From an uncultured Chloroflexales bacterium (GTDB lineage Bacteria; Chloroflexota; Chloroflexia; Chloroflexales; Chloroflexaceae): 37,939 nt of DNA. Below the pieces are notes generated by a model. The model was not told where the DNA came from, searched no databases, and was given only the letters and a program-made list of their open reading frames with translations. Of the stretch, positions 28,592-31,369 are shown in pieces. The position numbers and the translations under genes are program-made. The stretch's first letter is position 1; each line of letters begins with the position of its first letter. Location of the stretch: NCBI GenBank assembly GCA_937967405.1, contig CALCJV010000076.1:1-37939 (forward strand), in the 5' to 3' direction.

Positions 28592-28620
28592 ATTGTAGCA
28601 AAGAATGCGTGTAGTGTCGA
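28592..28620 (-). promoter_or_regulatory. promoter of the mrp-moaA unit
   Basis: On the minus strand: TCGACA (28620-28615), a 17-bp spacer and TACAAT (28597-28592), with TGC directly before the -10 (extended -10). Confidence 0.6.
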
Positions 28621-28718
28621 GGCAAGGGCCGCAGGGGCGCGCAGGTTCATGTCACCATGCCGCAGGCGCAGCGTATGTGGTATGCTATAGCCGTAATACC
28701 ATCCGCTCATACGAGGAA

Positions 28719-30641
28719 ATGACGACAACCACCATGATTCTGGTAACGATTGCAGACCTAACCAAATACTTCGGCGCAGAGCTGATCTTCGCCAACCTCA
28801 CCTTTCAGGTCGTGGCGGGCGAAAAGGTGGCGATTGTCGGGCCCAATGGCGCAGGCAAAAGCACCCTGCTCAAAATCATTGCGGGCATCCACCACCCCGA
28901 TAGCGGCACGGTGCAACTGGCTCGCGGCGCACGCCTCGCCTACCTCAGCCAAGAAGTCACCTTTCCCGCCGGACAGACGCTCTGGCAGGCGATGGAGACC
29001 GCACTGGCTGAGCTTGCCCAGCTGCAAGCCGAGCTGGAACAGCTTGAAGCCCGCCTTGCCGATACCAGCGCACCTGATTGGGAAGCCACGATGGAACACT
29101 ACGGCGAGTTGCAGCACCGCTTTGAGCATGCTGGCGGCTACCACAAAGAGCAGCGCATCGAGCGGATTTTGCACGGCTTGGCGTTCCACCCCTTCCACTA
29201 CCACCAGCCGCTTGACCAGTTCAGTGGCGGGCAAAAGACCCGCGCCGGACTTGCGGCGACGCTGCTTGCTGATCCCGATCTGCTGCTGCTCGATGAACCG
29301 ACCAATCACCTCGACCTAGAGACGCTAGAGTGGCTTGAGCAATTTCTGCGCGAATGGCACGGCACATTACTCGTTGTATCGCATGATCGCTACTTTCTTG
29401 AGAAAGTTACCCAGCGCACCATCGAAATTGCCAATCGCACCCTCGAAGATTACCCCGCCAGTTACACGGGCTACCTCGAACTGAAAGCCGAGCGGCTCGA
29501 ACGGCGCATGAAAGAGTATGAGCAGCAACAGGAGCAGATCGCCCGCACGGAGGAGTTTATCCGCCGCTACAAGGCGGGCCAGCGCAGCAAAGAGGCTCGC
29601 GGGCGCGAGAAACGCCTGAATCGCCTGAAGGAGACCCAGCTGATTGCCCGCCCCGAACAACCCGAACAGTTGCGCCTCTTTCTGGATAGCAAGCTCCGCA
29701 GTGGCGATCTCGTGCTGGAATGTAGCAATCTGGTGGTGGGCTACGCCGAGCCAGATCAGCCGACTCCACACATCCTGCTGCAAACGGGCGAGCGCGAACT
29801 GTTGCGCGGTGAACGGGTCGCCTTGCTGGGTCCGAATGGCTGCGGTAAAACGTCCCTGCTCCGCACCCTGATCGCCCAACAACGCCCGCTCAAAGGCAGC
29901 TTCCGCTTGGGCCACAATGTTGTCGTGAGCTACTACGCGCAGGGGCACGACATGCTCCAGATGGATGCGACGGTGTTGGATGAGATACTGCGGGTCAATC
30001 CGCAGCTTGGTGTGGAGCGGGCCCGCACCCTGCTCGGCAATTTCCTCTTCAGTGGCGATGACGTGTTCAAGCGCATCAATCAATTGAGCGGTGGCCAGCG
30101 CAGCCGGGTTGCCCTTGCCCAACTGACCCAGATGCCGGGCAATCTGCTGATTATGGATGAGCCGACCAACCACCTCGACATACCGGCCCGCGAAGCATTG
30201 GAAGGCATGCTCAAGCAGTATCCGGGCAGCTTGCTCTTTGTTTCGCACGACCGCTATTTCATTGATGCACTGGCAGATAAGCTGTGGATCGTACAGGATG
30301 GGCGGCTGCGCCAATTCTTGGGCAACTATAGCGACTACCGCGCCCATCTCGAACAGCAGCAGACCCTGCCCGAACCAGCCACCGTGCCGCGTAGCAAAGT
30401 CAGCCCAGCTAGCCCACCGGCCAAGCCCGATGCCGCCGAGCGGCAACGCCGCAAACGCCTTGCCGCCCTCGAAGCCGAAGTCGCAGCACTGGAGCAGCAA
30501 TTGGCCCAAGTGCAGCACGAGCTAGCGCAAGCCAGCACCGCCCAAGATGTCGCCCGCATCGCCGCGCTCGGTACGCGCTACACCGAACTGGAAACCCTGC
30601 TCGCGCAACGCTACGCTGATTGGGAAGAGCTTGCGGCGTAA
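28719..30641 (+). CDS. ABC-F family ATP-binding cassette protein
   Basis: A 640-aa soluble protein with two ABC domains and no membrane segment. Domain 1: Walker A GPNGAGKST (41-49), signature FSGGQKTRAGLAATLL, Walker B LLLLDEPTNHLD. Then a charged inter-domain helical linker (LERRMKEYEQQQEQIARTEEFIRRY). Domain 2: Walker A GPNGCGKTS, signature LSGGQRSRVALAQL, Walker B LLIMDEPTNHLD, ending in a coiled-coil C-terminus (LEAEVAALEQQLAQVQHEL). ABC-F proteins act on the ribosome in translation or antibiotic protection. It looks like the Uup/YdiF type. Start: ATG at 28719 behind GAGGA, very close; the ATG at 28734 is an alternative. Confidence 0.93.
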   Translation: MTTTTMILVTIADLTKYFGAELIFANLTFQVVAGEKVAIVGPNGAGKSTLLKIIAGIHHPDSGTVQLARGARLAYLSQEVTFPAGQTLWQAMETALAELAQLQAELEQLEARLADTSAPDWEATMEHYGELQHRFEHAGGYHKEQRIERILHGLAFHPFHYHQPLDQFSGGQKTRAGLAATLLADPDLLLLDEPTNHLDLETLEWLEQFLREWHGTLLVVSHDRYFLEKVTQRTIEIANRTLEDYPASYTGYLELKAERLERRMKEYEQQQEQIARTEEFIRRYKAGQRSKEARGREKRLNRLKETQLIARPEQPEQLRLFLDSKLRSGDLVLECSNLVVGYAEPDQPTPHILLQTGERELLRGERVALLGPNGCGKTSLLRTLIAQQRPLKGSFRLGHNVVVSYYAQGHDMLQMDATVLDEILRVNPQLGVERARTLLGNFLFSGDDVFKRINQLSGGQRSRVALAQLTQMPGNLLIMDEPTNHLDIPAREALEGMLKQYPGSLLFVSHDRYFIDALADKLWIVQDGRLRQFLGNYSDYRAHLEQQQTLPEPATVPRSKVSPASPPAKPDAAERQRRKRLAALEAEVAALEQQLAQVQHELAQASTAQDVARIAALGTRYTELETLLAQRYADWEELAA

Positions 30642-30708
30642 CCAGACCAGCAGGCAAGCCCCGCCCCGTAGCACACCATCATCACAACCATTGCACCTAA
30701 GCAAAGCG

Positions 30709-30736
30709 AAACGCTGACCCCGCAGGGCCAGCGTTT
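30709..30736. terminator. 12-bp hairpin between the ABC-F gene and the 15-aa peptide gene
   Basis: AAACGCTGACCC (30709-30720), loop CGCA, then GGGCCAGCGTTT (30725-30736), with one mismatch; the flanking G and C (30708, 30737) extend it. It lies 67 bp after the ABC-F stop and 30 bp after the peptide stop on the other strand, so it could serve both as a bidirectional terminator. U-tracts are short on both sides. Confidence 0.65.
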
Positions 30737-30766
30737 CTATTGGTAAAGGACATTGCTACCAGAGCG

Positions 30767-30814
30767 TTAGTTGTTCGCTCCAGCGGCAATGCCCATACGC
30801 TGATTGTCACTCAT
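30767..30814 (-). CDS. 15-residue peptide gene with a full-consensus ribosome binding site
   Basis: The frame reads MSDNQRMGIAAGANN then TAA. Upstream lies AAGGAGGTGAT, the complete complement of the usual 16S rRNA 3' end, ending 4 bases before the ATG. An in-frame ATG two codons earlier overlaps the SD and is unlikely. A consensus promoter lies 55 bp upstream of the ATG and a hairpin 30 bp downstream of the stop, so it is a free-standing transcription unit. The peptide is polar, has no hydrophobic segment or Cys, and matches no family I know. It could be a regulatory, signalling or leader-type peptide, or the RNA itself may be the product. Confidence 0.6.
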   Translation of the reverse strand: MSDNQRMGIAAGANN

Positions 30815-30868
30815 GGGCATCACCTCCTTCGTGCCTAGACGGCAGGTAGAATTTGATTTTGTAGTAAA

Positions 30869-30897
30869 ACTATACACAGCTTTTGAAATGTTGTCAA
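30869..30897 (-). promoter_or_regulatory. consensus promoter of the 15-aa peptide gene
   Basis: On the minus strand: TTGACA (30897-30892), a 17-bp spacer and TATAGT (30874-30869). This is one of the best sigma70-type matches in the window. The leader before the ATG at 30814 is about 48 nt. Confidence 0.75.
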
Positions 30898-30990: not shown

Positions 30991-31176
30991 TTAGACCGCT
31001 GGCTTACCCGCCAGTACAGTGCCTGCTTGGATCAACCACTGGCCGAGCGTGGCACGGATTGCACTCATAGGGGCAGGGCGATATGTTTGAGGGTTGGACA
31101 GGGCCATATCGAGGACATGCCATTCATGCCGTCGTTGTTCTTCCCGATGAAGCTGTTCAAAGTAATCCTTACGCAT
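30991..31176 (-). CDS. small hypothetical protein, 61 aa, divergent from MocR
   Basis: A 61-aa protein with a highly charged helical N-terminus (RKDYFEQLHREEQRRHEWH, 2-20) and a more hydrophobic C-terminal helix (AIRATLGQWLIQAGTVLAG). The start at 31176 follows GAAGGAGA. It is preceded by a strong promoter containing one arm of an inverted repeat and lies head-to-head with the MocR regulator, whose likely target it is. I do not recognise the family. Confidence 0.7.
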   Translation of the reverse strand: MRKDYFEQLHREEQRRHEWHVLDMALSNPQTYRPAPMSAIRATLGQWLIQAGTVLAGKPAV

Positions 31177-31243
31177 CGTTGTCTCCTTCTGATGCAGCAT
31201 GATCAGTTGTACGTAAGTGCGGTGCAATATCTCACCTACGCTC

Positions 31244-31272
31244 ATGATAGCGGCTGAGTGGACTGTTTTCAA
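31244..31272 (-). promoter_or_regulatory. promoter of the 61-aa protein gene
   Basis: On the minus strand: TTGAAA (31272-31267), a 17-bp spacer and TATCAT (31249-31244). The spacer contains the inner arm of the 31257-31304 inverted repeat. Confidence 0.65.
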
Positions 31273-31304
31273 GTGCCAGCTCAACCAATTTGCACCAGTC
31301 CACT
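31257..31304. promoter_or_regulatory. 9-bp inverted repeat, candidate MocR operator
   Basis: AGTGGACTG (31257-31265) and its exact complement CAGTCCACT (31296-31304) are 30 bp apart in the divergent MocR/61-aa intergenic region. One arm lies between the -35 and -10 of the minus-strand promoter. MocR proteins bind widely spaced paired sites in divergent intergenic regions, so this fits, but binding is inferred. Confidence 0.55.
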
Positions 31305-31369
31305 TGAGCGGCAACAAAAAGCTGCTACCTGATACTTAGTCGATCAAATCACACATCTCTGATGATCTA

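Follow-up and report, generated by a model that had tools for sequence, protein, structure and literature searches.

The window analysed here, the whole stretch of 37,939 nucleotides, carries on its minus strand a mini-gene whose features are collected in Table 1. The original prediction had described a complete miniature transcription unit too short for standard annotation, with a TTGACA-17-TATAGT promoter, a leader, a full Shine-Dalgarno (SD) sequence and a 15-codon frame on that strand; this description proved right in all of these parts, the leader being predicted at about 48 nt, and the hairpin after the frame was found as well, with 13 pairs in our fold where 12 bp had been given. The promoter matches 11 of 12 consensus positions and has the top promoter-like score across the 6 kb scanned. 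The U-tract after the window hairpin is weak (GCTTTGCTTA) and is usually good in relatives, and the folded window RNA is much more stable than shuffles (z = -6.4). Searching the genome assembly (3.68 Mb, 88% complete) for the SD 11-mer yielded two occurrences, one in the mini-gene and the other at positions 123-133 of contig C62, the latter being the reverse complement of the 16S 3' end (...GGATCACCTCCTTTCT). Thus the mini-gene holds the sole perfect extended SD in the assembly, which, together with the class-wide conservation of the unit, bears out the earlier view that it is unlikely by chance. Beyond what had been predicted, we found two competing helices, a hairpin (P1) before the SD, an internal SD-like motif (SD2) and conservation in relatives.

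Table 1. Positions of the mini-gene features and of the neighbouring genes in the window.
Feature	Position	Strand	Details
Promoter TTGACA-17-TATAGT	30869..30897	(-)	TTGACA 30897-30892, 17-nt spacer, TATAGT 30874-30869
P1 hairpin UGCC-GUCUA-GGCA	30832..30844	(-)	immediately 5' of SD
Shine-Dalgarno SD1 AAGGAGGTGAT	30819..30829	(-)	11-nt perfect complement of 16S 3' end
Switch strand 1 GGUGAUGCCC	30815..30824	(-)	SD/start side of helix P2 (SD 3' half to AUG)
15-codon ORF MSDNQRMGIAAGANN + TAA	30767..30814	(-)	ATG at 30814, stop ends 30767
Switch strand 2 GGGCAUUGCC	30785..30794	(-)	partner of strand 1 (P2) or strand 3 (P3)
Internal SD-like GGAG (SD2)	30778..30781	(-)	5 nt 5' of last sense codon
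Switch strand 3 GCAAUGUCC	30748..30756	(-)	partner of strand 2 (P3)
Terminator-like hairpin, 13 bp	30708..30737	(-)	weak U-tract behind it
ABC-F ATPase gene	28605-30641	(+)	convergent with the mini-gene
108-aa ORF	30991-31317	(-)	upstream of the mini-gene
Promoter-like TTGAAA-17-TATCAT of the 108-aa ORF	31272-31244	(-)

A 201-nt DNA query clearly matched the core at E<0.01 in 37 of the 41 family genomes, drawn from 18 genera. The covariance model R1 recovered the element from 73 of the 82 genomes examined for the order, among them genomes that we take to be Chloroflexus aurantiacus J-10-fl, Roseiflexus RS-1 and Herpetosiphon aurantiacus; in the first of these three it lies on the minus strand at about 1,776,732-1,776,833. 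Model R2 detected the element in 136 of the 158 genomes representing Chloroflexia (70 of 78 genera) and in 89 of the 93 of good quality, nearly always as one copy per genome. When the phylum was sampled evenly, R2 matched 73 of 400 and the wider model R3 102 of 400, further Chloroflexota families included; the majority of the weak R3 matches inspected resemble the same kind of unit, and two weak matches (L134 and L138) were judged to be due to chance and excluded. Scanning 84,980 species genomes for an exact pattern, which would miss divergent forms in other phyla, returned 75 loci in Chloroflexota (Chloroflexales, Thermomicrobiales, Ardenticatenia); the four without a Chloroflexota title (three named "bacterium" and one Gracilibacteria MAG) were all members of Chloroflexales in other searches. 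A phage or mobile origin was rejected, since the exact pattern gave 0 matches on viral contigs and the element is usually single-copy. Two different copies occur in each of three genomes (L075/L076, L069/L079 and L083/L084 in G070, G061 and G052, respectively), and at L178 (5812-5933) two copies lie convergently inverted near a contig end, be they real or an assembly artefact.

Chloroflexi-1 RNA (RF01698, PMC2864571) is also a predicted structured RNA of Chloroflexus, whereas our element has no Rfam 15 family at gathering score, either in the window or in relatives including a Chloroflexus locus. An Rfam search of four loci at E<=5 returned chance-level matches only, tRNA or tmRNA identity was rejected as neither matched at the element, and no account of the element turned up in searches of open-licence literature. 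Judging by these comparisons, the mini-gene is nearly certainly a member of a previously unlisted, conserved small-RNA gene family of Chloroflexota.

Relatives share the promoter and terminator as well as the SD, start, short frame and stop, but differ in the flanking genes. An upstream promoter score of at least 10/12 was observed in 76 of 121 relatives versus 7 of 605 mononucleotide shuffles; downstream, 105 of 121 have a terminator-like hairpin, versus 22 of 363 shuffles. As judged by these signals, the element is a self-contained unit of about 150-160 nt with its own promoter and terminator. Its 3' neighbours are convergent or co-directional and come from different gene families. In 53 of 126 loci a LysM-domain lipoprotein gene sits immediately upstream in the same orientation, and in 31 of 126 a bL25/Ctc gene converges on the element; the arrangement of LysM lipoprotein gene, element and convergent bL25/Ctc gene, visible in L170, L070, L172, L177 and others, is the ancestral one; both neighbours were lost in the window genus and in Chloroflexus, where the element is retained. 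The convergence of the ABC-F gene on the hairpin, to which the original prediction had drawn attention, is real and recurs in one other Chloroflexaceae genus (L012/L148), but is incidental, as many relatives have bL25 or unrelated genes at this place. The 108-aa ORF upstream is conserved in the same genus (L002), has no Pfam match and is preceded by a promoter-like sequence of its own. A link to rRNA operons, considered because several elements lie near contig ends, was rejected: among the loci scanned a 23S gene is nearby only in Herpetosiphon, and there it is convergent.

Within the unit, the SD and start codon (strand 1) can pair with ORF codons 7-10 (strand 2) to form helix P2, and the same codons can pair with strand 3, located 3' of the stop, to form P3. 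The alignments show P2 and P3 as mutually exclusive predicted helices that both covary. Among 33 Chloroflexaceae sequences, 330 of 330 cells of P2 are paired despite five variable positions in strand 2, and P3, scored in a structure that includes P1, has 26 two-sided changes versus 9.6 in shuffles. In 71 sequences from across the phylum, P2 is paired in 95.2% of cells with 9 two-sided changes versus 1.0 in shuffles and P3 in 91.1% with 63 versus 20.4 +/- 3.3, a value of 63 being reached by 0 of 500 shuffles; slid controls in the same sequences are paired in 29-56% (P2) and 32-53% (P3) of cells. Herpetosiphon has GCUA/UAGC in place of GCCC/GGGC, and very divergent members still retain the strands of P2 and P3, overlapping in strand 2. 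The duplex is better than all 40 shuffles in 103 of 127 loci for P2 and in 89 of 127 for P3. Since the loci are related and not independent, significance is overstated by all of these shuffle counts; this inflation does not affect the slid controls, nor the compensations seen in separate families. For the window RNA, the two predicted folds at 37 C have -72.1 and -69.8 kcal/mol, a gap of 2.3 kcal/mol, and P2 is predicted to form first as the RNA lengthens. The P1 hairpin is paired in 97% of cells of the family alignment, with one compensatory change; its pattern CCGNNYAGG is kept in most of Chloroflexia, and the hairpin is not retained in several families (L105-L108, L127-L133).

The distance from the AUG to strand 2 is 17, 20, 23 or 26 nt, always 2 mod 3, in 60 of 60 Chloroflexales loci, and the loop length changes even inside single genera; since these changes come in multiples of three, ribosomes very probably read the ORF. 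The register is common to 117 of 123 loci phylum-wide, the exceptions being the outlier L038 and five Ardenticatenia loci, in which strand 2 lies in another codon register and the short ORF is still open, so that the ORF is shared and the peptide is not. Several Thermomicrobiales-type lineages have the AUG shifted by a few nt and still in frame. The ORF spans 12-24 codons (14-16 in 111 of 127 loci), and in close pairs pN/pS is 0.77 in the loop, 0.85 in the P2 strand and 0.61 in the rest, i.e. amino-acid changes are almost as free as silent-site changes. In ORF codons 2-4, AGT serine codons dominate (162 of 381), even in GC-rich genomes, and this bias after the start codon may be an RNA feature. 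The existence and the frame of the element are strongly supported by the comparisons, and conservation in relatives, the check proposed with the original prediction, was positive for frame, promoter and fold alike.

Between strand 2 and the stop codon, most families have a second SD-like stretch, GGAGG or GAGG; its mean energy is -7.6 kcal/mol versus -3.0 in codon-shuffled sequences, and it is stronger than these in 124 of 127 loci. In 7-nt windows the energy peaks 3-5 nt before the last sense (P-site) codon, a position which, by its spacing, is that of an ordinary SD for a ribosome whose A site holds a stop codon. Chloroflexaceae, including the window (GGAG), have a weak SD2, with GAGG just 2 nt before the P-site codon, and a few loci lack SD2 altogether. 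Its codon register is GGA GGT in some loci and xxG GAG GTx in others, which points to a constraint on the RNA rather than on the peptide. The stop codons of the element (n=127) are UAG in 88, UAA in 34 and UGA in 5 loci, versus 72, 39 and 118, respectively, among long ORFs of the same loci (n=229); the near-absence of UGA, leaving RF1-type stops, may reflect dependence on a release factor or the RNA around the stop. In a distant family (L142/L228, L143), GGAGGUG near the stop is followed, 3' of the stop, by a perfect anti-SD copy UCACCUCC. An internal SD before a stop codon is also known from prfB, where, as in the element, an SD-like motif is read by a ribosome with a stop codon in the A site; in the element, however, the spacing is mostly 5-8 nt and not 3, the stop is UAG or UAA and not UGA, and there is no frameshift product.

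The original prediction had left open whether the unit encodes a signalling or regulatory peptide or is a small RNA. If a functional micropeptide of 12-24 aa were the product, the helices would merely time translation, with a closure of the hok type until transcription ends; the strong promoter and SD of the unit, a frame, start and stop maintained class-wide, and the recurrent residues S-S-H/K-R ... G-I/V-T/A ... E-V-x-R are in keeping with this. We nevertheless regard it as unlikely, given that pN/pS is 0.61-0.85, that G-I/V-T/A is dictated by the RNA strand, that E-V coincides with GAGGT, which is present in the other codon register as GGA GGT, and that Ardenticatenia peptides are wholly different (MDHNSCRCTWASPEVSR) with the ORF and the SD-like motif retained. 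As the start, frame, length and stop persist despite drifting amino acids, a translated RNA is favoured and a peptide signal, although possible, less so; we read the conservation as one of translation more than of the peptide, which may itself be weakly constrained. Quite improbable, in our estimate, is a decoy or tether for ribosomes, i.e. an ideal binding site that captures 30S or 70S particles somewhat as 6S RNA does with polymerase. The SD of 11-12 nt, the sole one in the window's genome, the second SD-like motif at the stop and the strong promoter would suit such a role, for which, on the other hand, a maintained frame or stop is unnecessary, a single gene copy would require extreme abundance, and a binding site hidden by P2 is unsuitable.

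Our preferred reading, held with about as much belief as doubt, is that the mini-gene produces a translated, bistable small RNA gated by the ribosome and acting in trans, and that its amino-acid sequence itself probably matters little. The nascent RNA would first fold into P2, a closed state with SD and start hidden; once strand 3 is made, P3 would displace P2 and a 30S subunit could bind the extended SD. The ribosome would then cross strand 2 and terminate at the UAG or UAA stop; there, in most families, the SD-like motif may hold it and keep the RNA open, and ribosome occupancy would set the fold. With no conserved partner downstream in cis, the output would most likely be exerted in trans, and the RNA or its complex with the ribosome may have as targets either other RNAs or the pool of ribosomes.

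Control of the short ORF's translation by a metabolite- or protein-binding element, with P1-P3 as the sensor, is in our view very improbable. Its model would be the glutamine-type Downstream-peptide motifs, which control small ORFs in cyanobacteria and provide a precedent for RNA elements 5' of short ORFs (PMC2864571), and the conserved P1 loop together with the switch would agree with it. The Downstream-peptide and yfr6 RNAs resemble the element in being small transcripts with a short ORF, a conserved structure and indels in threes, but their motif is in the 5' UTR of the ORF, whereas the structure of the element spans the start, the ORF and the 3' part (PMC2864571). Inspection of the alignment revealed no compact conserved core, such as a riboswitch-like ligand-binding one, beyond P1, the SD and the switch strands, and P1 itself is missing in several families.

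A leader or attenuator acting in cis on a neighbouring gene would have the same anatomy of leader peptide, alternative helices and terminator, and the short ORF with mutually exclusive helices and the recurrence of the LysM and bL25 genes next to the element speak for it. The flanks of relatives, however, contain no conserved co-directional downstream gene: the gene there is often convergent and differs in family, the recurrent neighbours are upstream or convergent and hence cannot be attenuated, and the element survives the loss of both. Attenuator-style control of the convergent neighbours being impossible, a cis attenuator of ABC-F or of another neighbour was rejected, and we hold any such leader function to be highly improbable, somewhat more so than a sensor. 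That promoter, SD, frame and hairpin came together by chance is refuted by the class-wide conservation with covariation and has a negligible probability.

For the translated RNA acting in trans that we favour, the nearest known workings, by analogy, would be those of ribosome-dependent attenuators. In erm-type translational attenuators, a translating ribosome switches an SD by means of three strands, as may happen in the element, but the SD of erm leaders is that of the downstream gene and the SD of the element that of the short ORF itself. The mRNAs of hok-like type I toxins keep their SD metastably closed until the transcript is complete, a closure that the element would share; its peptides, in contrast, are hydrophilic (e.g. 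MSDSKRMGVTAGETR) and not of the hydrophobic membrane type, and it is single-copy and vertically kept. As in dual-function small RNAs, a free-standing promoter-to-terminator unit contains an ORF, whose translation is suggested by the conserved frame. The short RNA rnTrpL of S. meliloti and its 14-aa peptide peTrpL both act in trans (PMC7298713). With the element they have in common an ORF of about 14 codons, a short RNA, alternative helices and a terminator, but rnTrpL comes from the trp operon as a by-product, the trp genes lying downstream, whereas the element has a private promoter and no operon (PMC7298713), and the switch of the element, unlike that of rnTrpL, would act on its own SD.

Nearly all Chloroflexia, and several further families of Chloroflexota, retain the small gene described here, which Rfam does not list and which falls below the limits of ORF calling. 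Its anatomy raises the question of whether a regulatory signal can lie in translating 14 codons and not in the peptide. Tentatively, and with more doubt than belief, we suggest that it may represent a new class of regulatory RNA in bacteria, namely a free-standing mini-mRNA, conserved through much of the phylum, in which the signal would be translation, not the peptide, and which would sense the ribosome pool by extended-SD initiation and by UAG/UAA release with a second SD to hold the ribosome at termination, via a bistable fold, and relay it in trans. Both competing helices and both SD sequences, the extended one and that preceding the stop, lend themselves to clean point-mutation tests in cultured strains (Chloroflexus aurantiacus, Roseiflexus, Herpetosiphon and Sphaerobacter). 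If true, this would provide a phylum-level small RNA linked to translation and a guide to similar elements elsewhere.
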